A stretch of 31,849 bases of DNA from a virus, in the IMG/VR virus record IMGVR_UViG_3300037193_000547, positions 1-31,849 of that record, one strand, 5' to 3'. How positions within the stretch are numbered: the first letter of the stretch is position 1; every line of letters begins with the position of its first letter. The translations under genes were made by a program, and so were the position numbers. This document shows positions 9,889 to 30,178 of this stretch, piece by piece. The notes under the pieces are model-generated. The model saw nothing but the letters and a program-made list of their open reading frames with translations. It did no database searches and was not told where the DNA came from.

Positions 9889-10341
9889 ATGGGAGCAGGA
9901 AGACCTACAGATTATAACGATCAGGTATTAAAAGATTCTTTTGGGTACATTCAAAGCTGTGAAGACTCATATATAACTGTTGGTGAGGCAGTTATAAAGA
10001 AAGTTAGCGTTCCAACAATAGAAGGATTAGCGATGTATCTGGAAGTGTCTCGATCAACGATATACACATGGCAAAAAGAACACCCTGAATTTCTGGACAT
10101 TATTGAAACCTTGTTGCAAAAACAGATCACTGCTTTGATCAACAATGGACTCGCAGGAAACTATAATTCAACCATTGCAAAAGTCCTTTTAGCCAAACAT
10201 GGATATACCGACAAACAGGAAATAGACCAGAAAACAGAACATTCAGGTTCAATAACCCACAAAATAGACCATTCAAAATTATCTGATGAAGCCCTCAGAG
10301 AAATTGCTAAACTCGATCAGCCCGAAACTAGCCAAGATTGA
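9889..10341 (+). CDS. terS: Terminase small subunit
   Basis: Binds phage DNA and hands it to the large subunit for packaging. The 150-aa product starts GAGRPTDYNDQVL, then has a helix-turn-helix (EGLAMYLEVSRSTIYTWQKE, about residues 45-64), a pattern shared by many phage terminase small subunits. A helical oligomerisation part follows (FLDIIETLLQKQITALINNG), then a lysine/acid-rich tail. It overlaps the large subunit gene by 56 nt, a normal arrangement for translational coupling. Clear by position and domain order. Confidence 0.85.
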   Translation: MGAGRPTDYNDQVLKDSFGYIQSCEDSYITVGEAVIKKVSVPTIEGLAMYLEVSRSTIYTWQKEHPEFLDIIETLLQKQITALINNGLAGNYNSTIAKVLLAKHGYTDKQEIDQKTEHSGSITHKIDHSKLSDEALREIAKLDQPETSQD

Positions 10342-11689
10342 ATTAGCAAGGCGTCATTTCGCTGATTTTGTATCCTACACAAAGCCTGATTACCAGTTTA
10401 ACTGGCACCATATATTACTCTGCGATAAGCTGGACCAGTTTGCTAAGGGGAAAATAAATAAGTTAATGGTATTCATGCCTCCTCAACATGGTAAAAGTCA
10501 ATTAACAACCAGGCATTACCCATCCTACATGCTTGGATTAAAACCAGCTACAAAGATTTCGGTTTGCTCATACTCAGCCACGCTGGCACAGGCATTCAAC
10601 CGTGATATTCAGCGAATAATTGATGATTTGCCATACCATGATATATTTCCGGAAACACTCCTAAACTCATCAAACGTAACCACGGATGCCCATGGTGCAT
10701 ATCTTCGCAACTCCGACATATTCGAAACTCTTAAATTCAGGGGATTCGTTAAAACAGTTGGCGTTGGCGGATCACTGACCGGCACCCCGATAGACATCGG
10801 CATCATTGACGACCCGTTCAAAGACCGAGAGGAGGCGATGTCGATACGGATCAGGGATAAAGTGTATTCATGGTACACAGATGTGTTTAAAACCCGCCTG
10901 CACAATACATCTCAAGAGCTTATAATTATGACTCGGTGGCACGAAGATGACCTTGCGGGCCGTATTTTAAAGACCGAGAACGATTGGGAGGTGATCACAT
11001 TCCAAGCAATCAAGGAAAGAGATATTCCAGGAGATCCCCGGGCAATAGGTGAAGCCCTTTGGCCAGATAAACACAGCCTGGAAAGGATATTGGCCATTAA
11101 AGAAACCAGTCCCTTTACCTTTTCAAGCCTTTATCAGCAGGAGCCCAAGCCCTCTACCGATGCTTTAGTATTCCCGGAATGGAGCGAATACGATCAGGAA
11201 CCGGACATAGCCCCGATTTACGGCCTTGATTTCGGGTTCAGTAATGACCCTAGCGCCATAATTCAGGTTAAAATTCACAAACAAGACATGTATTTGCGGG
11301 AGATGCTGTATAAAAAAGGACTAACAACTCCAGATCTGGATCAGAACATGAGGTTTGTTATGCCGCAGTGGGCGCGCATCGCTGCTGACAGCGCAGACCC
11401 GCGCACTATTGAAGACCTCAGACGCAAGGGCTGGAACATTGTCCCCTCAGTAAAAGGCCCAGACTCAGTTATCAATGGTATAAATTGGATCAAGGGCTTC
11501 AAGCTGCATGTGCATAAAGACAGCCATAATCTGAAAAACGAGCTTTTTAACTATCAATGGCTGATGTACGGAGGCAAACCGACAAACAGCCCCATAGACT
11601 CCTATAACCACCTGATTGACTCAGCGCGCTATACGAAGACGTTATACAAAGTAAACACCGGCTTAAAATACAGTTTCCATAAATCATAA
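10286..11689 (+). CDS. terL: Terminase large subunit
   Basis: ATPase and nuclease that translocates and cuts phage DNA at the portal. In the 467-aa product, Walker A is PPQHGKS (residues 65-71) and Walker B is IGIIDD (171-176) with the following acidic residues; IIMTRWHEDDLAGRI (213-227) is the typical coupling motif. The nuclease half begins at GLDFG (313-317, Asp315), with Asp368 in AADSADP and Asp445 in LIDSARY completing a likely metal site of the RNase H-like fold. The length is normal. It has no in-frame alternative start after the ATG at 10286. It is followed by a structured intergenic stretch rather than a portal gene, which is unusual. Confidence 0.95.
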   Translation: MKPSEKLLNSISPKLAKIELARRHFADFVSYTKPDYQFNWHHILLCDKLDQFAKGKINKLMVFMPPQHGKSQLTTRHYPSYMLGLKPATKISVCSYSATLAQAFNRDIQRIIDDLPYHDIFPETLLNSSNVTTDAHGAYLRNSDIFETLKFRGFVKTVGVGGSLTGTPIDIGIIDDPFKDREEAMSIRIRDKVYSWYTDVFKTRLHNTSQELIIMTRWHEDDLAGRILKTENDWEVITFQAIKERDIPGDPRAIGEALWPDKHSLERILAIKETSPFTFSSLYQQEPKPSTDALVFPEWSEYDQEPDIAPIYGLDFGFSNDPSAIIQVKIHKQDMYLREMLYKKGLTTPDLDQNMRFVMPQWARIAADSADPRTIEDLRRKGWNIVPSVKGPDSVINGINWIKGFKLHVHKDSHNLKNELFNYQWLMYGGKPTNSPIDSYNHLIDSARYTKTLYKVNTGLKYSFHKS

Positions 11690-11861: not shown

Positions 11862-12059
11862 ATGAAGGTTGAGCTTTTTAGTTTTTGGAATGATCGTGAA
11901 TATTGTCAGTGGTGGATTGTCATTTTAGACATTACGTTTTATGGTAGAGATTCAAATAAAAATTACTGCCTTTTTAACATTCAGAAGGATCGATACAGGT
12001 GGATTGTAGAGATTCTATTCATCCGATGGGATTTGTTGTGCAGGAAGCTTAAAAAATGA
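11862..12059 (+). CDS. Hypothetical protein, 65 aa
   Basis: The likely start is the ATG at 11862 (MKVELFSFWNDREYCQWWIV), because an upstream in-frame ATG at 11799 would take a hairpin into the coding region. The product is rich in aromatic and Ile residues, with short alternating strands (VILDITFYGRD, YRWIVEILFIRW), typical of small beta-rich phage proteins. Its TGA overlaps the next gene by 4 nt. Confidence 0.5.
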   Translation: MKVELFSFWNDREYCQWWIVILDITFYGRDSNKNYCLFNIQKDRYRWIVEILFIRWDLLCRKLKK

Positions 12060-12199
12060 AAGCTAAACCCACCCACGGAGGCAAGCGTAAAGGAGCCGGA
12101 AGGCCAAAAAAGGAACCCACTAAAATATTAAGGGTTCCTGCATCTATAATCCCAAAGGTTAAAAAACTGATTCATGATCACATTCAAAATCAAAAATAA
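12056..12199 (+). CDS. Small basic AT-hook-like protein, 47 aa
   Basis: The product starts MKAKPTHGGKRKGAGRPKKE and continues PTKILRVPASIIPKVKKLI. The KGAGRPKK stretch is of the AT-hook type, and the ILRVPASIIPKVKKLI part resembles the ribbon end of small DNA-binding proteins of mobile elements. It overlaps the gene before by 4 nt and the gene after by 26 nt. A DNA-binding role is inferred. Confidence 0.6.
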   Translation: MKAKPTHGGKRKGAGRPKKEPTKILRVPASIIPKVKKLIHDHIQNQK

Positions 12200-12815
12200 A
12201 AGCTATAACCTACCATCATCATGGTACGATTTCAGCTTCGACCTATACATGCGGTATTTGAAAGAAATCAAAGAAACAGACGATTCTTTGAAAATCATTT
12301 GTCTCCTTGCTTCTGTGGATTACGAAATTCTTAAAAACGCCACGGTTAAAGGCGCTGATAATATAATTCGGTGTCTGTCGTTCTTGTCCAATGCTCCAAA
12401 GTTTGACGGTGTAACCGACCACATCGGCCCATATAAGCTGCCGATAAACCACAAAGGTCAGTTCGATATTCAGTTTGAAAGCTTGGGCCAGTTCGAAGAT
12501 ATGCGCGGCATTGTAAAGAGCATACCCCAAGGCAATGCAATTGAACTATTGGAAGCTTATCCGAAGTTCTGCGCGCTGTATCTCCAAAAGATCAGAGACG
12601 GTGAATACAACTACGGTAATGCAATGGAAATGGTGAATGAGGTTAGGTCATACCCATTGTCGGACATATTAATTGCAGGAAGTTTTTTTTTGCTAAGTTC
12701 AACGAACTCACCGATTGGCACTCGAACCAGCTCCCACCAACAGAAGAAGACCCGCAAGCGGAGGAAGCAGGATGGTCGCAATTCCTCCAAACGTTCGGCT
12801 CGTACGCGCAAATAG
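12174..12815 (+). CDS. Tail assembly chaperone-like protein, zero-frame product, 213 aa
   Basis: The first 172 residues form a helical domain (MITFKIKNKSYNLPSSWYDF at the start). After the T9 run the zero frame turns into 41 residues of Ser/Arg/Lys-rich sequence (HQQKKTRKRRKQDGRNSSKR), unlike normal coding and overlapping a much better -1 frame. This suggests the zero-frame tail is the minor or incidental reading, as for lambda G versus GT. The protein resembles Bacteroidota phage tail chaperones by size and place, upstream of tail genes; the call is inference. Confidence 0.55.
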   Translation: MITFKIKNKSYNLPSSWYDFSFDLYMRYLKEIKETDDSLKIICLLASVDYEILKNATVKGADNIIRCLSFLSNAPKFDGVTDHIGPYKLPINHKGQFDIQFESLGQFEDMRGIVKSIPQGNAIELLEAYPKFCALYLQKIRDGEYNYGNAMEMVNEVRSYPLSDILIAGSFFLLSSTNSPIGTRTSSHQQKKTRKRRKQDGRNSSKRSARTRK

Positions 12816-12958
12816 ACCGCGTTTCCAGAAAGATAAATATTCCGGAAGATGAGCTTTACAAATGGTCGGCTAAAAGGTTTTGGTTCAAACACCTGTATCT
12901 TGCTTGGGAGTCACATAACGAATCCAAGTATTATAAATTGATTATGAACAAGAAATGA
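12174..12958 (+). CDS. Frameshift fusion product, 261 aa (tail chaperone GT-like)
   Basis: A -1 shift in the T9 run (12683-12691) joins residues 1-172 to an 89-residue -1 frame (FAKFNELTDWHSNQLPPTEE, later WSQFLQTFGSYAQIDRVSRK and WFKHLYLAWESHNESKYY) that ends at TGA 12956-12958, touching the start of the next gene. The -1 frame has no usable start codon of its own before its last residues, so it can be made only by recoding, by transcript slippage, or if the true run has one more T. Lambda G/GT proteins use the same strategy to make a short and a long tail chaperone. The C-terminal part reads as a normal protein. Confidence 0.6.
12683..12691 (+). other. T9 slippery run (probable -1 frameshift site)
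   Basis: Nine consecutive T residues, read AGT TTT TTT TTG in the zero frame, contain the heptamer T TTT TTT, a classical -1 slippery pattern in which both tRNAs re-pair perfectly. Such a run is also prone to polymerase slippage and sequencing miscounts, so the count needs confirmation. Confidence 0.6.
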
Positions 12959-13435
12959 GTGATATTTGATTTCGTGAAAGGGCATGAATCAATCCACACT
13001 CTAATTAAAGACACCGCACAAAGCCTTGCGGACAATGTTGAATTCGCTTATGAAACCCCCGCTGGATTTGACCAGATCAGAAACCAACGCTATCCATTCG
13101 TTGTGTTAGACCCGCCCAGGGCAGTACCTGGATACACTGTTAATAACGTTTCAAATTACTCTAAAATCTGGCTTATCCAGATGGCTTTCTACGCTGCTGA
13201 TAAAGCGGCTGCAACTGGCAATGAGTCTGCTAAAATCCTTGACGACATGGACGCATTCGTGGACGACTTCATTAACAAGCTAAACTTTTATTCCGATCAG
13301 GCCAGTGATATTGTTTTAACCTCATTCAGTCAGGAGCCGTTTATTAAAAGTACGGCCAATATTCTAACAGGCTACATCCTTACATTTCAAATGCAGGTGC
13401 CGGATAATTTTGATTATTGTAAAATTGAATGCTGA
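12959..13435 (+). CDS. Putative tail terminator or head-tail joining protein, 158 aa
   Basis: The start is a GTG directly after the TGA of the frameshift gene; no ATG is in frame nearby. The middle (ESAKILDDMDAFVDDFINKL) and the C-terminal ILTGYILTFQMQVPDNFDYC resemble small structural proteins placed before gp10-like proteins in Bacteroidota phages. A tail terminator is the likely role by position; the family is not certain. Confidence 0.5.
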   Translation: MIFDFVKGHESIHTLIKDTAQSLADNVEFAYETPAGFDQIRNQRYPFVVLDPPRAVPGYTVNNVSNYSKIWLIQMAFYAADKAAATGNESAKILDDMDAFVDDFINKLNFYSDQASDIVLTSFSQEPFIKSTANILTGYILTFQMQVPDNFDYCKIEC

Positions 13436-13920
13436 TGAACGCTGAGATATTTACCATATTGCAAAACGCAGGCACCAGCGCAATACAGCAGATCAGAAAC
13501 AACATGTCGGCAACCGGCACCAATTCGACCGGTAAAAGCTCAAAGTCATTAACATACGAAATTGAGGAAAAAGGAACCTCTATATTTTTGAGGGTGTTGG
13601 GCCGTGAATACTTTGCCGTAGTGGAAACTGGAAGACGGCCTACCCCTCAATACACCAAACCCTCGCGGGAGTTCGTTCAATCCATTAAAGAATGGGCGCA
13701 AGCCAAAGGCAAACCAGAAGGATCAGCATATGCGATAGCTAAGTCTATTCACCAGAAAGGCACCAAGCTATTTCGTGAAGGCGGTCGTAGGGATGTATAC
13801 TCAAACGTGGAACAGAGCTTAGTTGATCAGGTTGGTAAAGACCTACTTGATAAATACGCCAATTTGTTTTTAGTTGAAGCAGTGCAAATTTTAGATAATG
13901 GCAATAACCGTAATCAGTAG
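13435..13920 (+). CDS. HK97 gp10-like head-tail joining protein, 161 aa
   Basis: I prefer the ATG at 13435 (TGATG overlap with the stop before it) to an ATG at 13429. The pattern VVETGRRPTPQYTKPSREFV, then SIKEWAQAKGKPEG and AIAKSIHQKGTKLFREGGRR, is very like HK97 gp10-type proteins, which join the tail to the head. The N-terminal helix (FTILQNAGTSAIQQIRNNMS) and a helical C-terminus agree. It overlaps the next gene by 23 nt. Confidence 0.65.
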   Translation: MNAEIFTILQNAGTSAIQQIRNNMSATGTNSTGKSSKSLTYEIEEKGTSIFLRVLGREYFAVVETGRRPTPQYTKPSREFVQSIKEWAQAKGKPEGSAYAIAKSIHQKGTKLFREGGRRDVYSNVEQSLVDQVGKDLLDKYANLFLVEAVQILDNGNNRNQ

Positions 13921-15673
13921 ACCAATAGGCAACAAACTCAACACCTCATTAGTGGATGGGGTTATTGTCGATGACGGTACAGGCGATGCGAGAGTATACG
14001 TAGCCAGCGGCCACGGGCTTCAGGATGGTGATTACGTTTACATAATCTCAAACTTTGATTCATACAACGGGTTTAAATACGTTGACTCTACGGCTTACGA
14101 TTACTTCAAAATAAAAAATAGCTCGGGCGAGGACTTCGTTAGATTCGTTCAGGAATCAGACATAGAGTTTTATGTATCCGCGCTGAACCACGGCTGGCAG
14201 TGCGTGCACTTACCCATCGTTTATGAGCTTGAGTCGTCATTATTCCCAAACAACACAGCCGACACGGAGCGTAAAATAACGGCCGTAACTGATTCAAACG
14301 GATATTGTAATATTACTGTAGACGGAGATATTAAGGCGACAGGATCAGCAGCAGAACTTGAGTACATATCAATTGACGGTGTAAGCATTGAGGGTGTTAA
14401 CGGGGTTTATCAGATCATAGACTACATATCAGATACAAACTTTGTTATTGACTTAGCCTACTCATCAGCCGTTGACGGAGACCTAACTATAAACGGATAC
14501 GCGCATTATTATTACAATAACTATCACTTCCGGGTCAGAGTTTATGCTGGCTTGACTGCGGCCCATCGATGGGAGGATGAAAAACCTTATGAACTTGCCG
14601 GTGAGTTGAAGTTGATTCCCGATGATAACAATCGCGCCAAATTTTCAATATCAGAAATACTTAAAGGGTACATAAATTTAAGAAACAATCTTACGCTTGA
14701 TACCCTTCCGAATAATCTTGATTTCTACACACAGTTTTATATCTCGTACAGTGAGAATTATGATGACAGCGATGGCACGACAATAACAATAAGCGAAGGC
14801 GCATTTACTTCAGACCAGGCCAATTTCGAAGGCCACGCCATTAACGCTATGCTGCCTTTCAAATCACAAAACATTTCATTTCTGTCTGATTACCTTAATG
14901 AGGATGACTTACTAGCACAGTGGCTAACGGTGATGGATAGGCCAGTAATGGTTATCGGCAGGTTCTTTGATTTATCATTCATAAATCAGTACAACGGAAC
15001 CGACATACATGTGGTGGTGAATAAAAGACTTAACGGGCTATTGCAAAACGTTGAAGTTATCATACTTGAAAACCCAGGTACAGGAATATTAAGAGTTCCG
15101 TTTATTCCGGAAAGCGGATACGATGAATATTGCATTTACGCTACCGCGCCTGGTGAAAGCGATGCGGAACCAATAGTTTTGCCGGAGTTAAGCACATTCG
15201 TTAACGTGGCTGTACCAAACGAATTAAGCTGGACAACCGGAGCAACCCCGAGTGTTTTGCTTAATGGTGCCGCTGACGAATCCAGTAAATCTATCACTGG
15301 ATTGTACAACTTTGTAAACGGTAGCGAATACGATATAACGATTCGGGTTTCTTCGAGTGCTGCATGGATAGATACGTCAATAACTGTAAGATTTTTCGAT
15401 AATGCCAACTCTGTTATCACCTCTCAGATATTTAGCGGAATAACAGGAGCAGCAGGTTCAACAATAGAAAGAACTGCTGGTATAATGGGTTTTGGGAATA
15501 TAACCAAAGTTGGAGTAGCTGTTAATAGGCCGCCAACAGCAGCGGGAACATCCACTTATACCTTGCTTTCAATTTCAGGAGTTGAGTATGATGGCGAAGT
15601 CAGTTCAACGCAAATAACAGAACAGATTTGCTGTGATGTAGTTGAGGAGTGCGATACATTTGTAGAGTCATGA
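13898..15673 (+). CDS. Large tail structural protein, 591 aa
   Basis: A long beta-rich protein with no membrane segment. Its N-terminus contains VYVASGHGLQDGDYVYIISN then a YNGFKYV block, and residues about 130-200 (AVTDSNGYCNITVDGD, VNGVYQIIDY) repeat that pattern, resembling the FCCH-like or GHGL modules common in phage tail proteins. The C-terminal 40 residues hold a Cys cluster (QICCDVVEECD). It lies between gp10-like and tape-measure genes; tail adhesion or baseplate component is likely but not proven. Confidence 0.55.
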   Translation: MAITVISRPIGNKLNTSLVDGVIVDDGTGDARVYVASGHGLQDGDYVYIISNFDSYNGFKYVDSTAYDYFKIKNSSGEDFVRFVQESDIEFYVSALNHGWQCVHLPIVYELESSLFPNNTADTERKITAVTDSNGYCNITVDGDIKATGSAAELEYISIDGVSIEGVNGVYQIIDYISDTNFVIDLAYSSAVDGDLTINGYAHYYYNNYHFRVRVYAGLTAAHRWEDEKPYELAGELKLIPDDNNRAKFSISEILKGYINLRNNLTLDTLPNNLDFYTQFYISYSENYDDSDGTTITISEGAFTSDQANFEGHAINAMLPFKSQNISFLSDYLNEDDLLAQWLTVMDRPVMVIGRFFDLSFINQYNGTDIHVVVNKRLNGLLQNVEVIILENPGTGILRVPFIPESGYDEYCIYATAPGESDAEPIVLPELSTFVNVAVPNELSWTTGATPSVLLNGAADESSKSITGLYNFVNGSEYDITIRVSSSAAWIDTSITVRFFDNANSVITSQIFSGITGAAGSTIERTAGIMGFGNITKVGVAVNRPPTAAGTSTYTLLSISGVEYDGEVSSTQITEQICCDVVEECDTFVES

Positions 15674-16089
15674 CAATAGAACCTATATATATAACTTGGC
15701 TAAATTATCTTGGCGGCTTTGAATATTTTTTGTTCACTGCAAGGAAGGACTATGGAACAGAAGTTGAGGAAGTTGTCGAACAAGATAAAAACATTTTCAA
15801 TAACTGGCCTTCATCTTATGGAGCTTTTGCAGACACGATTAAGCGTCAAGTGTATCGTAAAACCCGGGATTACATTATTGTAAGAAGTCAACATCTTACC
15901 AGAGATCAACTTGACGCTATTCAGTGGATAAAGAAAAGCCCACTGGTTCAGATTATAGAAAGCAGAACAAACAGGCGGACGGTTTTAGTTGATGCAGATT
16001 CATTCATTAAATATTCTGAGAATGATGATTTATATTCAATTCAATTTGTGATTCGGTTCACAGATAACAACCCAAGTCAAACGGTATGA
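15670..16089 (+). CDS. Putative tail protein, 139 aa
   Basis: I chose the ATG at 15670, which overlaps the preceding stop by 4 nt (ATGA). The product begins MTIEPIYITWLNYLGGFEYF and continues with mixed alpha/beta character. The surrounding genes are tail genes and it is coupled to both neighbours. The C-terminal ADSFIKYSENDDLYSIQFVI is beta-rich. No family recognised. Confidence 0.5.
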   Translation: MTIEPIYITWLNYLGGFEYFLFTARKDYGTEVEEVVEQDKNIFNNWPSSYGAFADTIKRQVYRKTRDYIIVRSQHLTRDQLDAIQWIKKSPLVQIIESRTNRRTVLVDADSFIKYSENDDLYSIQFVIRFTDNNPSQTV

Positions 16090-18218
16090 TCCTTAAAGCA
16101 AATGGAACCATATTAGACTTCAGTGGTGATATTGATATGCAAAGACAATCCAAAGTCTTTGAGGAAATCGATACCACTATGGGTGATTTTTCTTACTCCT
16201 TCTCACTTGACCCAACTGCTCATAATCTTAAAACACTCGGAATACAATCGGCAGATATTCGCAATAAGAGAATTTATTCACAGGTAGATTCTGAGCTGCT
16301 TGATGACGAAGGCTTGCTATTGCATCGTGGTATGTTGCGAGTGGAACGAATTACCAATGTTATCGAGTGCTCTTTTTTTTCCGGAAACTACAACTGGATT
16401 TCCCAACTGACTGGAAATGTTTCAGATCTTGACTTTTCAGAATACGATATAGATATAACGGAAGCTAACATTATAGCCTCAAGAGCTAACACAGAGGGTA
16501 TAACATTCCCATTGATCGACAATGGGCCGCTTATAACGCGGTCTAGACCTAACCTAAAGGTAGAGGATCTGAATCCCTGCATGTATGTTAAAACTATATT
16601 CAAAAAGATATTTCAGAAAGCAGGAATAAAACTAAAGGGTGAACTTGTTAACGACTTCCTGTACAATAACACGATTGTTTGTAAGAACAACAAAAGCAAG
16701 TCAGATATTGACGACAGGTCAACATATGCTAATTTAACATCAGCTCAGACTCTTACCAACAGCACTCCGTCCATAATAGAATTTGATGACGATTCCACAT
16801 TCCCGTTTTTTGATGGTTCGGAGAATAACTACGATCCGACAACATTCGAGTATACGGCTGACGTGAGGATGAATCTCAGAGTGCAGGCTAGTTTGAAAAT
16901 GGAGGATAATTTATTTCTGATTGTAATAGCGATATTTAAAAATGGAGTTTTGTATTCAGGCAGCGGATCGCAGTCACGCAATGCCTCCATAAACGAAATT
17001 GTTCCATTGAACGCAGGTGATGTGGTTGACATTCGCGCAGAGTACGCAGACGGATCACACGCAACGTCAGATATACAAACCGCTACAGTTAAATTTACTC
17101 CCACTTTTCTTTATCGTGCCAGCGGATCTAATGCAGTGCCGAACTGGCCTAAGCAAGAATTTGTAGCTAACTTTTTAAACCTATTTAATGTCGTCACTGA
17201 ATATGATCCTGTATCCAGGGAATTAACATGTAACTTTTTCGACAACATAAAGACTAAAACACCTGTTGATATATCTGAATTTATAAAAGTTCAGGAGCAG
17301 GATTTTACTGAGTTCATTTCCAATTATGGAAGGCGGAATGTATTCACCTTCGATGAGGGCAGCGATGAGGAGTTGAGGGAGTATAACGTGACTGAATTTA
17401 TTAAATATGGCGCAGGTGTTATCTCGGTTAATAACGACTTTATTGAAGAAACTGCGGACGTGATTCAAAGTAAATTCAAATCCCCTATAAGCTATATTAA
17501 CCCCGCATTTGATGCCAGCTTGGAAAGGGTTGATATTATATCATTATCTGAAGATGACCAAACTAATTTTACCGCTGTTACTGATTCATCAGGTCTCGCA
17601 AGATTTACAATAGACGATGACTTTTTCGCTGATGGTGATGTGGTCAGAGTTAAGGACAGCTCAAACTCAAATTACAATGGTGATTATGTTGTGGAGTCGA
17701 TAAGCGCTGGATTTGTTACGTTAAAAGGTTTGGCGTATGAGGGCAGCGCCACAGGAAGGATAATAAAACTTAATTACGAATATTCAGATAATGATGACGT
17801 ATTTTTATTTGTTAACATTCCTAATTACAGCCTGTCCAACTTCAGCGGTGTTACTCAGTTCACACTGCAAGACACTGCGTATACTTCGATAGCGTATGCA
17901 TACTTTAATTTATTAAGTACCGGACGAGCTGTTAATGATGCTTATAAGCAATCTTTGAGCTTCGGAGAAATACTAAACCCATTAACCTATCAGCGGACTT
18001 TGCTTGAAAGTTATTGGAGTAACTTCGATGACATACTGAACGATCCGGTAAAGCTTAAACTGATAGCAACGATGCCTAAAAATATTTACCTATCATTAAG
18101 TCCATTAAACCCTGTTTTCATAAAGACATTGGAAAGCAGTAACTTATACTATCTTAACCTGGATCGGAGCTATAAAAACAGTCACAAGCCCTTTGAAATT
18201 GAGTTAATCAAATTGTAG
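16086..18218 (+). CDS. Large tail or baseplate protein, 710 aa
   Basis: A large beta-rich protein beginning MILKANGTILDFSGDIDMQR. Residues about 495-560 (AVTDSSGLARFTIDDD, FFADGDVVRVKDSSNSNYNG) repeat the module seen in the gene at 13898. Its size, place just before the tape measure and coupling to the gene before fit a baseplate or tail-tip protein. Which one is not clear from sequence. Confidence 0.5.
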   Translation: MILKANGTILDFSGDIDMQRQSKVFEEIDTTMGDFSYSFSLDPTAHNLKTLGIQSADIRNKRIYSQVDSELLDDEGLLLHRGMLRVERITNVIECSFFSGNYNWISQLTGNVSDLDFSEYDIDITEANIIASRANTEGITFPLIDNGPLITRSRPNLKVEDLNPCMYVKTIFKKIFQKAGIKLKGELVNDFLYNNTIVCKNNKSKSDIDDRSTYANLTSAQTLTNSTPSIIEFDDDSTFPFFDGSENNYDPTTFEYTADVRMNLRVQASLKMEDNLFLIVIAIFKNGVLYSGSGSQSRNASINEIVPLNAGDVVDIRAEYADGSHATSDIQTATVKFTPTFLYRASGSNAVPNWPKQEFVANFLNLFNVVTEYDPVSRELTCNFFDNIKTKTPVDISEFIKVQEQDFTEFISNYGRRNVFTFDEGSDEELREYNVTEFIKYGAGVISVNNDFIEETADVIQSKFKSPISYINPAFDASLERVDIISLSEDDQTNFTAVTDSSGLARFTIDDDFFADGDVVRVKDSSNSNYNGDYVVESISAGFVTLKGLAYEGSATGRIIKLNYEYSDNDDVFLFVNIPNYSLSNFSGVTQFTLQDTAYTSIAYAYFNLLSTGRAVNDAYKQSLSFGEILNPLTYQRTLLESYWSNFDDILNDPVKLKLIATMPKNIYLSLSPLNPVFIKTLESSNLYYLNLDRSYKNSHKPFEIELIKL

Positions 18219-18220
18219 TC

Positions 18221-20137
18221 ATGGCCAAACAGCAAGCAATATTAGAATTACAGGTAGATCAAAGTGATCTTTTACGGAGTGCTGCGAGTTCTAAAAAGGC
18301 TTTGCTTGATCTGAAAGAGGAACAAACTGAGCTCAACAAAGCGCTTAAGACCGGAACAATTGATACTCAAAGATATGCCGAGGAGACCGTTAAACTTGAA
18401 CAGAGATTAAAAAAAGAGCAAGCTACATACCAGGGCCTTACCAAAGCGATCAATACCAACTCTGGATCGTTGGACGCTCAACGTCTGAAACTTGCGCAGC
18501 TTACCCGGGAGAGAAACAGTCTAAATAAAACAACCGAGCAGGGGATAAAGGATTTTGATAGGCTTACCAAGGAGATTAAAGAGCTTAATACTGAAATCAG
18601 CAAACATGAGCAACAATCAGGTGATTTCAGAAGGAACGTAGGTAATTACGGAAATACTTTTAAAGAAGCCGCTGGCAACATACAGATTGCGGGAACTTCT
18701 ATTAGTGACATTACCACAAAAATAGCCTCGTTTGCCAACCCCGCTACTGCGGCAGTGGGCATTCTTGGAGGTCTGGCCGCTGCATATTCCAGATCTACTA
18801 TCGGAGCTAAAGACTTGGAGTTCGCGCAGAATCAACTCGCGGCCGCAACAACCCTGGTGACCAATAGTTTTGCCAGTATGATTTCCAGCGCTGAGGATGG
18901 AGAGGGCATTGTCAGCACTTTTGTTACTGCACTAATAGCATCAATTGATGGCATAGGAACAGCTTTAGAAGCCAGAGCGCTTGCACTAACACAGGAACGT
19001 TTGGAAGACCTTCAGCGCGAAGAACTATCTATCCGTGATCAGATCAATGAACGGCTTGAACGCAATTCCGAAATCATGACGGAATTACAAGACGAGCAAA
19101 TTGAATACAATGATAAAATAGGACTTACAAATGAAGCAATTGCCAATATCCGGGCGAACGAAGAAGACATAACAGCTAATTTACAGGAGCAGTTAAAAGG
19201 CCAACAAAGGCTTTTAAGCAGTGATAAAGAGAACGATGAGTTAAAGACTGCGGTACTTCAAACCACATTAGAAATCGGTAAAGCTCAAAAAGACGCAGAA
19301 AAGAGGGTTCAAGCTATCTTAAGAATAGAGAAAAACTTAACCGAAGAGTATAATAAGCAGCAGGCTGCGCTGGCTTTTGTAAGGTCTCGCACGGGTCTAT
19401 CCGGAACCGTGTCCGGGATCACCACAGGCCCAACCAAGCAAAGCATTTCAGGTGATCTACAAAGCGCAGGGCAGACACCAGTAGACGCAGCAACTCAAGC
19501 GATTGAGAAAGCCAAAACCAGCATTGAAAAGCAAGAATCTGAGAAACGTATCCGGCAAGCCGGAGATGAATTCAGAGCCAAACAGCTTTTAAGAGAGAAG
19601 GAGATAACAGCAATTGCAGATATTTCCAGCACGGCAGCGGGTATTTTTGATGAGCAGAGTGCGGCTTTTAAAGTACTGTCCACGATAGAAGCCACAATAA
19701 ACACGTATAAGGCGGCAAACCTTGCCCTGGCGTCAGCTCCGCCTCCATTCTCCTTTGCGCTCGCAGCCGCGACAGTCGCAGCAGGGTTGGCAAATGTGGC
19801 CAAGATCAACGGACTCGAATTCGCTGAAGGTGGCTGGACTGGTCCAGGCTCAAAGTATGATGTGGCCGGAGTGGTTCATAAGGATGAGTACGTTACTCCT
19901 AAACACGTAGTACACAACCCTATGGCGCAACCCCATTTAAAAGCACTTGAAAAAATACGTACTGGGTACGCAGACGGTGGATTTGTTGTGCAGCAGAATA
20001 CCGGGCCAGCTCAACAAAACGTTATGCTCATGAACGCAATAAAAAACTTACCACCTTCGGTTGTTGATATTCGTGAGTTTATTTCGGTAGAAGATCGTCT
20101 AAACAGCAAAATCAACGTTGTAAAATTACAGCCATGA
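18221..20137 (+). CDS. Tape-measure protein
   Basis: Sets tail length during assembly. The 638-aa product has a long coiled coil at the N-terminus (SSKKALLDLKEEQTELNKAL and onwards) and again around 250-380, two hydrophobic Ala/Gly-rich segments (residues about 170-190 and 500-530), and a C-terminal GGWTGPGSKYDVAGVVHKDE segment plus YADGGFVV that is typical of tape-measure proteins of this type. If about 0.15 nm per residue applies, the tail would be near 95 nm. Small for a tape measure, but within range. Confidence 0.8.
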   Translation: MAKQQAILELQVDQSDLLRSAASSKKALLDLKEEQTELNKALKTGTIDTQRYAEETVKLEQRLKKEQATYQGLTKAINTNSGSLDAQRLKLAQLTRERNSLNKTTEQGIKDFDRLTKEIKELNTEISKHEQQSGDFRRNVGNYGNTFKEAAGNIQIAGTSISDITTKIASFANPATAAVGILGGLAAAYSRSTIGAKDLEFAQNQLAAATTLVTNSFASMISSAEDGEGIVSTFVTALIASIDGIGTALEARALALTQERLEDLQREELSIRDQINERLERNSEIMTELQDEQIEYNDKIGLTNEAIANIRANEEDITANLQEQLKGQQRLLSSDKENDELKTAVLQTTLEIGKAQKDAEKRVQAILRIEKNLTEEYNKQQAALAFVRSRTGLSGTVSGITTGPTKQSISGDLQSAGQTPVDAATQAIEKAKTSIEKQESEKRIRQAGDEFRAKQLLREKEITAIADISSTAAGIFDEQSAAFKVLSTIEATINTYKAANLALASAPPPFSFALAAATVAAGLANVAKINGLEFAEGGWTGPGSKYDVAGVVHKDEYVTPKHVVHNPMAQPHLKALEKIRTGYADGGFVVQQNTGPAQQNVMLMNAIKNLPPSVVDIREFISVEDRLNSKINVVKLQP

Positions 20138-20358
20138 GGTTCATCAATAAATACAACATATCCCAGGAAGCCTATGATAAAATGCTTAAGGATGGCGTAA
20201 TCGGAATACAATGGCCCCGATGGGAAAGCATTTACGAAGACTTTAAAAAAGGCATGGCAATTCCCGGGGCGGTCAAAAGCCGTGTGATCATGGCTATATC
20301 CGATAAAGAGAACATTTCTGAGAGACATATCCGGGAAATAATATCGCGTCTCGAATAG
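20134..20358 (+). CDS. Small hypothetical protein, 74 aa
   Basis: Begins MRFINKYNISQEAYDKMLKD, with a mixed helical profile and KENISERHIREIISRLE at the end. Its ATG overlaps the tape-measure stop by 4 nt. No family recognised; it may be a minor tail or head protein by position. Confidence 0.55.
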   Translation: MRFINKYNISQEAYDKMLKDGVIGIQWPRWESIYEDFKKGMAIPGAVKSRVIMAISDKENISERHIREIISRLE

Positions 20359-20393
20359 GGAACTAAATACCCCTATCATATTAGTATTCATAT

Positions 20394-20411
20394 TTGGACA
20401 TTAGTGTCCAA
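20394..20411 (+). repeat. 7-bp inverted repeat at the start of the protease gene
   Basis: TTGGACA (20394-20400) and TGTCCAA (20405-20411) are separated by TTAG. The last base of the repeat is the A of the protease start codon, and CTGGACAC follows a few bases later. It could be an operator or a hairpin covering the start region. The upstream CATATTTG is one base from a TAnnTTTG element. Confidence 0.5.
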
Positions 20412-21550
20412 TGACTGGACACATTTACATTTATGGTTTTATTGGCACAGGAAAAGGGGAAATTTCCCTTAAAAACGTAATTTCCCAAGTTGACGATTTA
20501 GCTGATAACTATGAAGTCCATATTTTCTCTTACGGTGGCGATGTGTATGAGGGGTTTGCAATTTACAATTTCCTTTCTCAAAAGTTAACAAAACCGAAAG
20601 TTGCGAAGATTGAAAGCGTATGTGCTTCAATTGCAACGTTGGTGGCTGGCGCATGTGATACGATAGTGATGAGTGAGAAGAGCCAGTTTATGATCCACAA
20701 TCCGAAAATTACGGAACTTGCATCGCCCTCAGATGCAAGGAACTTAAGAAATATAGCCGATCAGTTAGACCAGATCAAAACGCTTTTGATCGATGTCTAT
20801 GAGAAAAAAACCGGCTTACCAACCAATAAGCTATGGGAGCTTTACGATAAAGAAACCTGGCTTACACCTCAGCAATGCTTAGAAATGGGATTCGCTGACG
20901 AAGTAGAAACCGCCTTAAAGGCCGTGGCAAAAATTAACCTCAATTCATTACCCATGGAAAAGAAACATGAAAATCTTTTTCAGCGGTTGATCAATGCTTT
21001 CAGAGCAAACCCGCCTAAAAACGAAATGCGAGAAACCTTGGAGGATGGACGAATCATTATTGTGCTTACTGAAGATGGAGATTGGACAGGCAAACAGGTT
21101 ATCCAGGAAAACGGAGAAGCCTTGGAGGCCGGTACTTATAAACTTACATCTGGAAAAACATTCACAGTAGGGCCAGATTCAACTATTACCGAAGTGCAGG
21201 AAGCAACACCGCCTGAAAACAAGGAAGTAACACCACCAAACGAAGAAGAAATGGAAAAAGATAAAAAAATCGCAGAGCTCGAAGCGCAATTGACCGCTTT
21301 GAAAGCTGAAAAAGAAACTGCTGACGCTGCCACGGCTGAAGCCAAGGCAAACGCAGCTAAGATCGAAAACCGTGTTAAAAGCATGGAATCTGATTTCCTC
21401 AAGATGAAAGAGGAAATGACAAAAACTTTTGGCGACACCACATCGCCAGGGAAAGGCCCCGTGAATAAATTCTCAGCTCCTAAAATTGAGGATTATGACC
21501 CAATGGGCGAAGAAGCATTGAAAATTTTGAAAGCACAAAACAGAATCTAA
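20411..21550 (+). CDS. ClpP-type prohead protease fused to a scaffold-like domain
   Basis: The first 180 residues are a ClpP/S14-type protease that would trim head proteins: catalytic Ser73 in ESVCASIATL, His96 in MIHNP and Asp146 in ELYDKETWLTP, with the spacing normal for the family (Gly-Gly-Asp at 42-44 forms the substrate groove). From about residue 181 the protein is acidic and then coiled coil (IAELEAQLTALKAEKETADA), like a scaffold. An internal ATG at 20954 (MEKKHENLFQR) could start a separate scaffold, as for lambda C/Nu3, but has no ribosome site. It is followed directly by the capsid gene. Confidence 0.8.
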   Translation: MTGHIYIYGFIGTGKGEISLKNVISQVDDLADNYEVHIFSYGGDVYEGFAIYNFLSQKLTKPKVAKIESVCASIATLVAGACDTIVMSEKSQFMIHNPKITELASPSDARNLRNIADQLDQIKTLLIDVYEKKTGLPTNKLWELYDKETWLTPQQCLEMGFADEVETALKAVAKINLNSLPMEKKHENLFQRLINAFRANPPKNEMRETLEDGRIIIVLTEDGDWTGKQVIQENGEALEAGTYKLTSGKTFTVGPDSTITEVQEATPPENKEVTPPNEEEMEKDKKIAELEAQLTALKAEKETADAATAEAKANAAKIENRVKSMESDFLKMKEEMTKTFGDTTSPGKGPVNKFSAPKIEDYDPMGEEALKILKAQNRI

Positions 21551-21554
21551 GGCC

Positions 21555-22598
21555 ATGACAAAAATAATTAACTCCATGTATACACCGGATTTCAGTTTCA
21601 CTTATCCGGGCAAGCTTAATACCGAACTGGTAAGAAAGCCAAAAATACAGACACCGGCCTTGAGTGAACTGTTTACCATCAAAAATGGTGTGCGATGTGG
21701 TGAATACCTTAACTTGGTTCAGCCGCTTACCACGGTATTAACCAAAGGTACTGCAGATTGTTCTCCAACATACACACAAGCGGGCTCAATCACAGATAGG
21801 AAACTGGAAACAGGCCTGTTTGAGATCAATCTGGAATGGTGTAAAAAACACTTTGCTGCAACTTGTAACCAGCTTTCAGACTCCGATCTGATTGGTGATG
21901 GCATTAGCGGCTATGAGCTTGGCGGCCTCCTGCGTTCGATGATCTTCGAAGAAGTTCTAGAAGCTGCGAGACTTGATATTTTCAAGGTAATCTTCTTGTC
22001 AGACAACAGCCTTGGCGCTGGATCAACAAACAAATATAGCAATATCGATGGCGTATTTGTAAAGTTCACCGATGCGGCAACAGCTTATTGTGTTAAGACT
22101 GTAAGCAACACACTTCCAAACCAACACAACTCGGTTCTGAGCACAAACCAAGCCCGCGACACATTCCGGACTCTTTGGGGCAACGCTCAAACACTGCTTA
22201 AGCAGATGCCAGCAAGCCAGAAGCAAATATGGACAACTGGATCAATGTGGGAAAACTACTATGACTCAATCATAAACGATTGCTGCACTGAGGGATCATG
22301 GAAAGCCGGACAGGATGGTTTAGGTGATCGTCTCTTTTACCGTGGCGTGGAAATCCTGCCTTTGTGGGTGCTTGACGATGCGCTGGAGAACGATACTGAT
22401 AACCCTTGGTATGATGAGATCAGGCACTTTGCAGTTTACACTGCTAAGTCAAACCACCTGTTTGGTACTGAGAACGCAGCAGACCTGAACAATCTTGAAA
22501 TGTGCTACGATTGCCGGACAAAAACAACCTTGATCCAGGGTGAAATGCGTCTCGGTTACAACTTTGCACAGTGCGATTTGATTTCATGGGCTTACTAA
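21555..22598 (+). CDS. Putative major capsid protein, 347 aa
   Basis: It lies four bases after the protease/scaffold gene, the normal place for a capsid gene. The sequence is a soluble mixed fold (GEYLNLVQPLTTVLTKGTAD near residue 50) with a likely long helix around YELGGLLRSMIFEEVLEAAR, and C-terminal TKTTLIQGEMRLGYNFAQCD. Many Cys are present. I do not recognise a specific signature, so the call rests on position, size and context. Confidence 0.7.
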   Translation: MTKIINSMYTPDFSFTYPGKLNTELVRKPKIQTPALSELFTIKNGVRCGEYLNLVQPLTTVLTKGTADCSPTYTQAGSITDRKLETGLFEINLEWCKKHFAATCNQLSDSDLIGDGISGYELGGLLRSMIFEEVLEAARLDIFKVIFLSDNSLGAGSTNKYSNIDGVFVKFTDAATAYCVKTVSNTLPNQHNSVLSTNQARDTFRTLWGNAQTLLKQMPASQKQIWTTGSMWENYYDSIINDCCTEGSWKAGQDGLGDRLFYRGVEILPLWVLDDALENDTDNPWYDEIRHFAVYTAKSNHLFGTENAADLNNLEMCYDCRTKTTLIQGEMRLGYNFAQCDLISWAY

Positions 22599-22605
22599 AA
22601 TAAAA

Positions 22606-22611
22606 AGGAGG
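22606..22611 (+). promoter_or_regulatory. Strong ribosome binding site AGGAGG
   Basis: AGGAGG is placed five bases before the ATG at 22617, an optimal spacing. Together with the site at 6969 it is one of two full matches noticed, in a region where most genes lack one. It would suit a gene needing high expression, such as a tail tube subunit. Confidence 0.55.
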
Positions 22612-22616
22612 AAATT

Positions 22617-23171
22617 ATGCCTTTAGAATGCGGTATAAGTGCGGGGGTTGACGTTAATTGCGACAACCTCCGAAAGCCTGGTGGTTTATTTAGAGACGTT
22701 TGGGTATTCAATTTATCCGATCTTAGAACGCCAATTCCAGTGGAGCTGGCCGACTACGTGACGAACTTAGACCTACTTACATACCAATCTCTTTATAAAT
22801 TCTCAGGCACCAAGTTTTCACACGAGGCAACATGGACAGAGCAGACCAGCGATGGGGGCAACAAATCATATCAGCAGCAAGTTATTCTCAGGTTGTTTAA
22901 CAATGACCCTACGGATGACGCGACTATTGAAGATTTGGGTGTGGCTGAAGTTGGAGTTATTGTCCGTACAAATGCCGGTGAATTCTTGATATATGGAGCA
23001 GAGAACGGCTTAACGTCCGATGGCTCAACAGGCGGAGCAGGAAGGCAAGCAACTGACGCCACGACTTCACAGATCACTTTAACGGGGGTTGAAAGATTCC
23101 TGCCTAAGCGGTTGTTGATTGGCGGGTCAGCATCGAATACATTAACCTATCTGGAAGCAAGAACAGCGTAA
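22617..23171 (+). CDS. Putative major tail tube protein, 184 aa
   Basis: A beta-rich soluble protein with a C-terminal segment GRQATDATTSQITLTGVERF that resembles the end of Bacteroidota phage tail tube proteins. The N-terminus (LECGISAGVDVNCDNLRKPG) contains two Cys. It has the best ribosome site of the region and is the last gene before a strong terminator, consistent with a highly expressed structural gene. A head decoration or connector protein is the alternative. Confidence 0.5.
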   Translation: MPLECGISAGVDVNCDNLRKPGGLFRDVWVFNLSDLRTPIPVELADYVTNLDLLTYQSLYKFSGTKFSHEATWTEQTSDGGNKSYQQQVILRLFNNDPTDDATIEDLGVAEVGVIVRTNAGEFLIYGAENGLTSDGSTGGAGRQATDATTSQITLTGVERFLPKRLLIGGSASNTLTYLEARTA

Positions 23172-23485: not shown

Positions 23486-23704
23486 ATGACAATCAACTTA
23501 CCATATATATCTATGAATATTCAACTTGAAATGGACAAGCTTAAAACGGAGAAATCCGATCTTGAAGCAGTGATTGAAACGCATAAAGAGCGAATCAAAG
23601 CCATTAATTTAAAGCTCCGTAAACTTGACACCGTGCTCAAGCACGCGCAAGGCATTTTAACAGATCAGGAGGGAGTCAGAGAACACGAAGAGTCAGAGGC
23701 ATGA
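23486..23704 (+). CDS. Small coiled-coil protein, 72 aa
   Basis: Almost all charged helix with heptads (MDKLKTEKSDLEAVIETHKE, then RIKAINLKLRKLDTVLKHAQ). An alternative start at 23513 (MNIQLEMDKLK) would remove nine non-helical residues and is plausible. It is the first gene after the terminator region and its stop overlaps the next start by 4 nt. A dimerising coiled coil is likely; function unknown. Confidence 0.55.
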   Translation: MTINLPYISMNIQLEMDKLKTEKSDLEAVIETHKERIKAINLKLRKLDTVLKHAQGILTDQEGVREHEESEA

Positions 23705-24802: not shown

Positions 24803-25077
24803 ATTTACATGACATGCCGGATTGTAATCATCACATGAGGCCCAATCTAAAGGTCGCATCAAAAGTGACTGGTATTGACTTGGAAAATCCGATAAATTTA
24901 TCCGAGATGGAAGTGTATGAGTGTATATGCAGACCAGAGAAGACACAATACGGAATGAAATTCGAGTTGACGGCACAATTGAAAGGTTGGGATTTTAATA
25001 CGGACACAGGGGAAACCGATGAAATCACTGTGACTATTGTTAGGATATCATCAAAAAGACCAAAAATCGATCTATGA
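24799..25077 (+). CDS. Hypothetical protein, 92 aa
   Basis: Begins MNLHDMPDCNHHMRPNLKVA with Cys/His residues at the N-terminus and a beta-rich second half (KFELTAQLKGWDFNTDTGET). It overlaps both neighbours by 4 nt. No function; the cluster suggests an accessory role. Confidence 0.5.
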   Translation: MNLHDMPDCNHHMRPNLKVASKVTGIDLENPINLSEMEVYECICRPEKTQYGMKFELTAQLKGWDFNTDTGETDEITVTIVRISSKRPKIDL

Positions 25078-25775
25078 TTAGTGTAATCCATCCGAGCCGT
25101 CAACGCCCGCAGAAAAGCTTTCACAATGCTGTAGAATGGCTTAACAAAGCCCAGTGCGAAGTTGAACTAATCGTGAGTATCGACAACGATGACAAAACAA
25201 AAGTCGAATACAGCAAGCTATACGCACCAATAGCAAATCATTTTCTCGTTAATAATAACCGATCAGCAGTTGACGCAATCAACAAAGGCGCTGAAGTTGC
25301 AACCGGTGATATTCTGCTAGTTCTATCTGATGACTTTCGTTGCCCTGAAGGATGGGGCAAAAGGCTGGTCGAATTAACAGGAGGCAAGAAATATTGGATT
25401 GCCAAAACTCCTGATGGTATTCAGCCGTGGTTAATCACTATGCCTATAATGGATCGTGAGTATTACAATCGATTCGGGTATGTTTATTTCCCTGATTATT
25501 TGCACCTATTTTGTGACACGGAGGTGTCTTGTGTTGCCGATCTCACCGGCAGGAGAATTAATTTAGACATTCCATTTGTGCATGATCACTATTCGGTAGG
25601 TAAGTCAGATAAAGATGCAGTAAGCAAAAAAGCCGATGCAACTTGGGAGCAAGGTGAAAAACTTTTTCTTGAAAGATTTAAAAATAAATTCTACTTGAAA
25701 GACACACCTGGGAAAATAACAGATCCGACATATATCAATTGGGCTAAAATGAAAGGGGTAACAATTATACAATGA
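25074..25775 (+). CDS. GT-A-type glycosyltransferase (family 2-like), 233 aa
   Basis: Transfers a sugar from a nucleotide donor. It starts ISVIHPSRQRPQKSFHNAV, a GT2-like N-terminus, with ELIVSIDNDD (31-40) and ILLVLSDDF (80-88) giving an acidic DDF metal-donor site. A later DTEVSCVADL and HDHYSVGKSD (about residues 147-180) fit the acceptor half. It is shorter than many GT2 enzymes, and acceptor and sugar are unknown. Coupled to both neighbours by 4-nt overlaps. Confidence 0.7.
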   Translation: MISVIHPSRQRPQKSFHNAVEWLNKAQCEVELIVSIDNDDKTKVEYSKLYAPIANHFLVNNNRSAVDAINKGAEVATGDILLVLSDDFRCPEGWGKRLVELTGGKKYWIAKTPDGIQPWLITMPIMDREYYNRFGYVYFPDYLHLFCDTEVSCVADLTGRRINLDIPFVHDHYSVGKSDKDAVSKKADATWEQGEKLFLERFKNKFYLKDTPGKITDPTYINWAKMKGVTIIQ

Positions 25776-26395
25776 AGTTAGCTATTCTCATACCGACCTT
25801 ACCTGAGACTCGCAACATAAACCTGTTGCAGAGATTACGTGATCGTATTGATAAACAGGTTGAAAAGTATCCGGATGTAAGAATAACGATCAATGACGCG
25901 CCAAGGTCGATGCCTACCGGAACAAAGCGAAACCAATTGATAAGTATTAGTGGTGCCAGTGAATACTTTTGTTTTATAGATGATGATGACATGGTATCGC
26001 ACAATTATGTGTCGTTGATCATGGAAGCTATTGAAAAGAGTCCGGACGTTATAACTTTCAATGGATGGATGACCACAGACGGAAATCGCAGGCAGGATTT
26101 TGAAATAAGATTAGGTGAAAAGTATGAAGAGCGCAATGGGAAGTTTTATCGGTATCCAAATCATCTATGCGTTTACAAAAGAGAAAAAGTATCTCACGTG
26201 AAGTTTCCCGCAACCTGGCAACAGGAAGATTACATATGGGCGACAGAAATAAAAAACAAAGGACTTCTTAAAACCGAGGTTCATATCGATCAAGACTTGT
26301 ACTGGTATGATTTCCAAAGCAATAAAACGGATAAGCCAAACACTGGTTTGAAAGTCAGAGAAACAAGACTAAACAGAAGGTATAGATACAGATGA
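25772..26395 (+). CDS. GT2-like glycosyltransferase, 207 aa
   Basis: Starts KLAILIPTLPETRNINLLQR, and has PTGTKRNQLISISGASEYFC then FIDDDD (68-73), a classical GT-A donor and metal site, followed by MVSHNYV. QQEDYIWATEI in the C-terminal half is a common acceptor-side motif (the ED of GT2 enzymes). It is a close paralogue of the gene at 27063. The sugar and acceptor are unknown. Coupled to neighbours by 4-nt overlaps. Confidence 0.75.
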   Translation: MKLAILIPTLPETRNINLLQRLRDRIDKQVEKYPDVRITINDAPRSMPTGTKRNQLISISGASEYFCFIDDDDMVSHNYVSLIMEAIEKSPDVITFNGWMTTDGNRRQDFEIRLGEKYEERNGKFYRYPNHLCVYKREKVSHVKFPATWQQEDYIWATEIKNKGLLKTEVHIDQDLYWYDFQSNKTDKPNTGLKVRETRLNRRYRYR

Positions 26396-27066
26396 CAGCA
26401 GTAGAATACGCGTTAAATTACGCCAAACAAATAGCATACTCTTCAAAAGAAACATTATTGTCTACCCATAAATCCGCTTTAGAGATGCGGAATAGGCGCG
26501 GGGTGTTTATTGAGTGTGGCGTGGCTGCTGGCGCTCAAATTATTATGATGGCTGCCGCTGCGCCTGAAAAGATGATATACGCTTTTGATTCATTCCAAGG
26601 AATACCTTTACCATCAAACAAAGACGATCAGTATCCAGGCATAAGAAAAATATCCAAGGAAGAACAATCCAATTTACCTCAACCAGGCGAACAGATTTTA
26701 GAATCTTCCGGGGCTACTGTTGTAAGTGAAGAAACATTTTGGGAACATGTTAATAAATCAGGCGTAGGCACAAAGAATATTAAAACCGTTCCAGGCTGGT
26801 TCGAGCACACTACAAAAATGTTCGGCAGCATGCACACACAAATAGCTTTGCTTCGGCTTGACGGAGACCTATACAATTCAACAAAAGTATGCCTTGAAAA
26901 TCTTTACCCGCGTGTTGTAAGTGGTGGCATTGTCATAATCGATGATTGGGCTTTGCCTGGATGCCAACAGGCCGTATGCGATTACTTTAAAAGTATTGGA
27001 GCCTTTTTTCAAATGCAATTCTACGGGCATGTAGATAGTCAAATAGCTTACTTCTATAAACCATGA
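26392..27066 (+). CDS. TylF/MycF-type O-methyltransferase, 224 aa
   Basis: Methylates a sugar hydroxyl using S-adenosylmethionine. Motif I is FIECGVAAGAQIIMM (39-53), followed by YAFDSFQGIPLP (63-74), both typical of the TylF family (macrocin O-methyltransferase). RLDGDLYNSTKVCLENLYPR and IVIIDDW supply the metal and acceptor part. Length is normal. It is inside the glycosyltransferase operon with 4-nt overlaps, so the acceptor is probably a glycan. Confidence 0.8.
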   Translation: MTAVEYALNYAKQIAYSSKETLLSTHKSALEMRNRRGVFIECGVAAGAQIIMMAAAAPEKMIYAFDSFQGIPLPSNKDDQYPGIRKISKEEQSNLPQPGEQILESSGATVVSEETFWEHVNKSGVGTKNIKTVPGWFEHTTKMFGSMHTQIALLRLDGDLYNSTKVCLENLYPRVVSGGIVIIDDWALPGCQQAVCDYFKSIGAFFQMQFYGHVDSQIAYFYKP

Positions 27067-27704
27067 GCACTACTTTATCCATACTCATACCGACCACGCC
27101 AGACAGAGGTGAAATGTTCACCGGTTTGTATAACGAACTGCAAAATCAAGTGGAATACTGCAAAACATTTCATCCGTCATTAGGTAATGTTCAAATATTG
27201 GTTGATGACTCGGTAAAATTTCTTGAAGGTGGTTTAAGCATAGGGAAGAAAAGAGAGGCTCTTGTAATGCGTGCGCAAGGTAAATACTTATGCTTTGTGG
27301 ATGACGATGATTTAGTAAGCGGTAATTATTTGGAGACGCTACTAAGACTTTGTCAAAATGATGCGGACGTAATAACATTCAGATCATTCTGTATGCTAAA
27401 GCAATTCTTATCAGTGGTTGACATGAGCTTAAACCACGAAGAAAACGAGCAAATGAACCCCGACTTTATTGTCAGGCGAAAACCCTGGCATATATGCCCG
27501 GTGAGGAGTGTGTATGCAAAAATGCACGGATTTTTAGACATAAGTTATGCTGAAGATTGGGATTGGTTTGGCAGAGTTTTGCCAATGTGCGCTAATGAGG
27601 TACATACAAACGCAATACTTCATGTTTACAGGCATGGCGATCATTCAGAAAGCGATAAAATAACACGTTACTTAAATGGCGATGAAAAACTATTCTCAAA
27701 ATAA
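27063..27704 (+). CDS. GT2-like glycosyltransferase, 213 aa
   Basis: Begins STTLSILIPTTPDRGEMFTG, with IGKKREALVMRAQGKYLCFV then DDDD (80-83) as the donor site and LVSGNYLETL after it; YAEDWDWFGRVLP in the C-terminal half is the probable acceptor-side ED motif. It closely resembles the enzyme at 25772 across the first 110 residues. It overlaps the next gene by 29 nt. Substrates unknown. Confidence 0.75.
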   Translation: MSTTLSILIPTTPDRGEMFTGLYNELQNQVEYCKTFHPSLGNVQILVDDSVKFLEGGLSIGKKREALVMRAQGKYLCFVDDDDLVSGNYLETLLRLCQNDADVITFRSFCMLKQFLSVVDMSLNHEENEQMNPDFIVRRKPWHICPVRSVYAKMHGFLDISYAEDWDWFGRVLPMCANEVHTNAILHVYRHGDHSESDKITRYLNGDEKLFSK

Positions 27705-28290: not shown

Positions 28291-28501
28291 AGGACTTATA
28301 TTAATGATAGGCATAATGTGGATATTGTTATTATCTATTCCGACCTACATTATAACGATGTTATGTTACGGACATACTTATGCATATATACTGCGATCAG
28401 ATATAATGATTGTGTTAATATGTTTGTTTGGCGGATACTTAGGAGTTATCGGAACAGTAGGTGGAGTGCTGGAAATTATAGATAAGAGAAAATCAAAATG
28501 A
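28280..28501 (+). CDS. Small membrane protein with two helices, 73 aa
   Basis: Two hydrophobic segments (LILMIGIMWILLLSIPTYII and IMIVLICLFGGYLGVIGTVG) and a short basic end (EIIDKRKSK). It could be a holin, an anchor for the sugar enzymes, or a host-membrane factor; sequence does not decide. Overlaps the genes before and after. Confidence 0.55.
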   Translation: MQDKGLILMIGIMWILLLSIPTYIITMLCYGHTYAYILRSDIMIVLICLFGGYLGVIGTVGGVLEIIDKRKSK

Positions 28502-30177: not shown

Positions 30178-30178
30178 A

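Follow-up and report, generated by a model that had tools for sequence, protein, structure and literature searches.

Frameshifting in tail chaperone genes is textbook knowledge. In lambda G/GT, the long product is a -1 extended one and the shift takes place on a slippery heptamer (PMC5009743), and some tailed phages frameshift without a stimulator (PMC5009743). Among phages of Bacteroidota, Flavobacterium sp. phage 1/32 carries an annotated two-product chaperone (F132_37/38, KJ018210), with an apparent -1 shift at a homopolymer of ten A's, directly before the tape measure gene, i.e. in the usual place. Runs of nine A's or T's are furthermore known as sites of polymerase slippage in IS elements and in Thermus dnaX (PMC1088944), and slippage of the polymerase on an A/T run in mxiE is cited in PMC3711429.

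The gene described here lies in an IMG/VR virus record of 31,849 bases, referred to below as the window. It is probably a lambda G/GT-like gene of the tail-assembly-chaperone type, in which part of the expression events enter the -1 frame at a run of nine T's (T9). Like lambda G/GT, it is a single gene with a short and a -1 extended product, a heptamer and no clear downstream stimulator (PMC5009743), and inasmuch as it works like lambda G/GT it belongs to what is known. Unlike lambda G/GT, to which it has no sequence similarity, it carries the T9 run, it is located beside the terminase and about 5 kb before the tape measure, and in most of its relatives it contains a dual-coding overlap of 37-50 codons, where the short product's own tail is under selection. 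It shares with F132_37/38 the two products and the apparent -1 shift at a homopolymer, T9 here as opposed to A10 there, but not the place before the tape measure. With the IS elements, Thermus dnaX and mxiE it shares a conserved run of about nine A's or T's that joins two frames; those, however, are not phage tail genes, and slippage of the polymerase is putative in the present case.

The features of the locus are collected in Table 1. Reading of the sequence bears out the initial annotation, which had placed the T9 run at 12683-12691, after 172 zero-frame residues, and had described both a 41-residue continuation of the zero frame and an 89-residue reading in the -1 frame. The zero-frame ORF (12174-12815) encodes 213 aa and its codons at the run read AGT TTT TTT TTG; residue 172 corresponds to the second TTT of the slip site and is followed by 41 further residues before the TAG, which in the window form a Ser/Lys/Arg-rich tail. 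The -1 frame had also been said to end directly before the next start, and this holds for the GTG at 12959 but not for the probable true start, GTG 12974: the relatives of the next gene start at the equivalent of the latter (VKGHESIH vs MSHKGIR), hence the gap between the two genes is probably 15 nt. No homopolymer in the window is longer than this T9. Nonetheless, 0.77 runs of nine or more T's are expected per window of such composition, so that the T9 of the window taken alone would be weak evidence, and it is the retention of the run in 35 relatives that makes it more than a chance occurrence.

Table 1. Features of the frameshift gene and its neighbours (positions in the window)
Feature	Coordinates	Strand	Evidence or remark
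N-terminal domain, 172 aa, common to both products	12174..12689	+	predicted strands then helices; AlphaFold2 pLDDT 85.0
T9 slip site with in-phase heptamer T TTT TTT (12683-12689)	12683..12691	+	conserved run, codon bias
Zero-frame tail of short product, 41 aa + TAG (12813-12815)	12690..12815	+	stop avoidance, amino-acid conservation
-1 frame extension of long product, 89 aa + TGA (12956-12958)	12689..12958	+	predicted all-helical; pLDDT 86.5
TAA closing the +1 frame one codon past the T run	12694..12696	+	+1 frame is reached by losing one U
Terminase large subunit	10286..11689	+	phrog_38 E 8.7e-78; Pfam Terminase_6N, Terminase_3C
Next gene, ~155 aa, unnamed; probable start GTG 12974	12974..13435	+	directly after the frameshift gene in all relatives inspected
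Tape measure protein, presumed chaperone client	18221..20137	+	phrog_1506 E 6.9e-15

The relatives, 35 loci in all (designated L with a number; some are near duplicates), were found by scanning viral contigs, and together with the window they make 36 rows of comparison. The T run occupies the same place in every row, with a length of nine in 34 rows and eight in two (L011 and L017), which leaves 33 T9 and two T8 among the relatives alone; in L041 it begins one base further downstream but keeps the length of nine. All 36 rows, including the T8 variants, have the heptamer T TTT TTT in phase. This constancy persists while the identity of the fused product to that of the window falls as low as 27%. 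The -1 extension, 85-93 aa long in the intact relatives, is conserved in 23 loci, and that of the window is 60% identical to that of L002 across all 89 residues. The zero-frame tail measures 37-50 aa in the 23 loci first compared, and two more distant relatives have shorter tails (24 aa in L051 and 21 aa in L061). L049, L050 and L053 are cut or rearranged loci; compared with L052 and L054, L053 (3507-3656) has an internal deletion in the extension whose ends are joined in frame, possibly an assembly artefact. In 200,826 plus-strand bases of 18 loci, 16 of the 17 T9 runs fall at the slip site, and A9 occurs once. The N-terminal domain, the run, the tail and the extension are thus kept together in the relatives, which strongly supports the earlier proposal that a change of frame at the T9 leads to a product of 261 aa; among the relatives found by sequence there is no homologue with an uninterrupted zero frame, nor any with a run of ten T's. 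Homopolymers are prone to error, and one could therefore regard the layout as an artefact of sequencing or assembly, or the gene as decayed. We consider the probability of this to be practically nil: the same run and layout recur in 35 loci from many metagenomes, by which an error of sequencing or assembly is ruled out, a similar arrangement exists in the sequenced isolates P12024S and P12024L, and selection acts on both frames.

The evidence for selection comes from a null model in which the genes were recoded synonymously with the codon usage of each genome and codons 2-41 of the extension were read in the zero frame. Statistics were based on 18 lineages (the 35 loci comprise at least that many), 14 of them in clade A and four in clade B. 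Stop codons are avoided in the zero frame of both clades (two seen against 23.0 expected in clade A, none against 7.1 in clade B), while in the control shadow frame, taken from the N-terminal domain and the end of the extension, their counts match the expectation. The similarity of the zero-frame amino acids also exceeds that of the recoded controls, with z = 12.5 for codons 1-24 and 11.0 for codons 25-36 in clade A, and 6.3 and 9.8, respectively, in clade B, as compared to -2.2 to 0.5 in control segments. These tests take the lineages as independent, and given the shared ancestry the z-scores should not be read as exact probabilities; the control segments come from the same genes and have near-zero values, which argues against shared ancestry as the source of the signal in the tail. 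The tails of clade A approximate to FF-x-x-KL-x-SLLTGT followed by a Ser/Lys/Arg-rich stretch, which contains more Ser and has a lower hydrophobicity than the recoded controls, and those of clade B have a common RLKRLLQDLPGYQKSLDFLL-like sequence without the Ser bias. The test of tail length at individual loci is suggestive only. Stop avoidance and amino-acid conservation rule out that the tail is passive debris, and judging from these sequence comparisons the two frames share a dual-coding overlap of about 41 codons, with both C-termini under selection; because of this, the short and the long product each have a C-terminus of their own. The long tail had been remarked upon in the initial annotation, but selection on it, revealed by the stops and the z-scores, had been overlooked.

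Selection is evident at the slip site itself. The Phe codons of the slip site are TTT in every case, compared to 41% of Phe codons elsewhere in these genes and 57% in the long ORFs of the same contigs, and the codon preceding the run is NNT in all 18 lineages, whereas a T in third position is found in 28% of Ser, Gly and Ala codons. Codon conservation relative to the synonymous expectation is 1.97 at the slip site, 1.37 in the overlap and 1.08-1.11 elsewhere. A shift to the +1 frame is ruled out, as this frame closes within 0-7 codons at every locus, a closure more frequent than expected from recoding (product of null probabilities 2e-4).

Whether the ribosome or the RNA polymerase slips on the run is a question that the initial annotation had left undecided, and on which we judge the two mechanisms close to even. 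The ribosome alone could slip by -1 on the in-phase U UUU UUU, as in lambda G/GT, and we rate the chance of this just short of one half. The heptamer is in phase even in the T8 variants, and ribosomal -1 frameshifting is classically associated with tail chaperones. On the other hand, selection for a heptamer alone leaves unexplained why nine T's are present in 34 of the 36 loci and why the run of L041 is shifted with its nine intact, and no downstream structure was found. Such a structure is common but not required; RNAalifold gives no pairs downstream of the run, fold z-scores scatter around zero, and neither supports a hairpin based on the AAGCT..AGCTT palindrome that is prominent in several relatives. 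Alternatively, slippage of the RNA polymerase on the T9 would add one U to some mRNA molecules, on which the ribosome would read on unshifted. T runs longer than eight are cited for polymerase slippage (PMC3711429), and in many bacterial genomes A and T runs that reach nine are under negative selection (PMC1088944). The homopolymer of the frameshift gene has about this length in all rows, the length of nine is conserved though the position can move (L041), and the frame that would result from the loss of one U is closed everywhere, as described above. It is the conservation of nine T's that makes polymerase slippage a serious option. It must be noted that two relatives have only T8 and that slippage of the ribosome on this run would leave the same picture. 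Moreover, we know of no tail chaperone for which polymerase slippage has been demonstrated, which counts against it here. On balance, we give polymerase slippage, acting alone or together with the ribosome, an even chance. We also propose, tentatively and with somewhat more doubt than belief, a chaperone family in which the long form arises mainly by polymerase slippage on a fixed T9, the overlap is dual-coding, the short form has its own selected tail, and the isoforms do two different jobs.

In the scheme that we favour, a switch to the -1 frame at the T9 in a fraction of expression events would yield two products: a short one of 213 aa, composed of the 172-aa domain and the basic, Ser-rich tail of 41 aa, and a long one of 261 aa, composed of the same domain and a helical domain of 89 aa. 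If the analogy with lambda G/GT holds, binding of the tape measure would be the task of the shared domain, and the additional domain of the long form would recruit the tail-tube protein. While the layout, its conservation and the selection on both frames can be read from the sequences, the chaperone role, the partners and the ratio of the products are what we infer from them. The proposed identity of the gene as a tail chaperone is probable from the position at the head of the tail block and from the layout, in which two products via a -1 change near the end of the first frame are evident at the sequence level, but it found no backing in profile matches: neither PHROG, Pfam nor PDB sequences provided a named chaperone family, and the -1 extension and the N-terminal domain had no significant match in Pfam, PHROGs, PDB sequences or INPHARED phage records. 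Nor does the gene occupy, in the window or in the relatives, the place directly before the tape measure, which is usual but not universal for genes of the G/GT type. With profiles that do not match and a position that differs, the sequence does not place the gene in a named chaperone family.

The position beside the terminase and about 5 kb before the tape measure, pointed out in the initial annotation, is confirmed, the distances being 0.5 kb and 5.3 kb, respectively. In seven relatives the frameshift gene heads a fixed block, in which it is followed by genes of ~155, ~160, ~600, ~140 and ~720 aa and then by the tape measure (the ~140-aa gene was not seen in L010, and the tape measure is seen only where the locus reaches it). 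In the window, the tape measure is directly adjoined by a 710-aa gene with no gene between them, so the usual slot of the chaperone is empty. A protein of the virion or the connector made in two forms would be compatible with the vicinity of the terminase, the distance from the tape measure and the failure of chaperone profiles, and -1 frameshifting is also used by other phage genes, which counts against the chaperone reading; we nevertheless find such a protein unlikely, since in all relatives inspected the tail block starts with this gene and there is no rival candidate for the chaperone slot. Several types of large terminase are found ahead of the tail block (L006, L007, L010, L014, L018, L023, L024), which suggests modular exchange at the junction. 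Between the terminase and the frameshift gene, a small ORF (12057-12199) with an AT-hook-like motif KGAGRPKK overlaps the start of the latter in a different frame. The order in the window (12174-23171) is terminase, tail block, tape measure, a ClpP-like head protease (20411-21550) and a probable capsid gene (21555-22598), and no portal gene was recognised within the window. The capsid genes are followed by a cluster of glycosyltransferase- and methyltransferase-like genes (25074-30955), which may act on surface sugars. The terminase and the tape measure resemble those of Flavobacterium and Bacteroides phages, though other phages match too, and this similarity suggests a host from Bacteroidota; two scans of bacterial genomes revealed no prophage relatives. 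A Bacteroides phage EMB2 gene in the same place was considered as a counterpart and rejected, as no similarity and no T9 run were seen in it.

The N- and C-terminal domains were folded separately with AlphaFold2, and both were modelled confidently (Table 1). The top fold matches of the N-terminal domain are unnamed phage proteins, and the first named organism among them is Nonlabens phage P12024S, with its gene 38 (I6R9M9, JQ823122; E 0.013, probability 0.99); for matches that carry the name tail assembly chaperone, E is 0.74 or worse, and a search of PDB structures returned no solved structure similar to the domains. Matches to both predicted domains, with weak scores for the C-terminal one, were obtained with four viral proteins of 220-258 aa, as would be expected of a single-frame version of the product. 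Gene 38 of P12024S has no detectable sequence similarity to the gene described here and its zero-frame tail is shorter, but the predicted fold is similar, it also follows the terminase, and it too combines a T9 with a -1 extension, which speaks for a chaperone role, as does the constant place of the frameshift gene in the seven relatives. In the gene 38/39 region of P12024S (L035, JQ823122; 23136-23830), the T9 lies at 23578-23586 and the -1 reading runs to 23830, taking in the annotated gene 39. Genes 38 and 39 have the appearance of a single frameshifted gene; they are annotated as two unrelated hypothetical genes without the T9 and the -1 extension, and PHROGs splits the pieces into two families (32199 and 38404).

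What we regard as new is the T9 signature across a group of uncultured viruses, the unusual position of the gene, the selection on both C-termini in a dual-coding overlap, and the unannotated counterpart in Nonlabens phages; a literature search, covering mostly open-access papers, yielded no publication about this T9 site or about dual coding in tail chaperones. The signature, i.e. a T9 after two Phe codons in a gene that follows the terminase, aids in finding chaperones missed by annotation, such as those of the Nonlabens phages P12024S and P12024L. That the run is kept at exactly nine T's permits a clean test of the ribosome against the polymerase in a phage gene, and selection on both alternative C-termini across some 40 overlapping codons is likewise testable.
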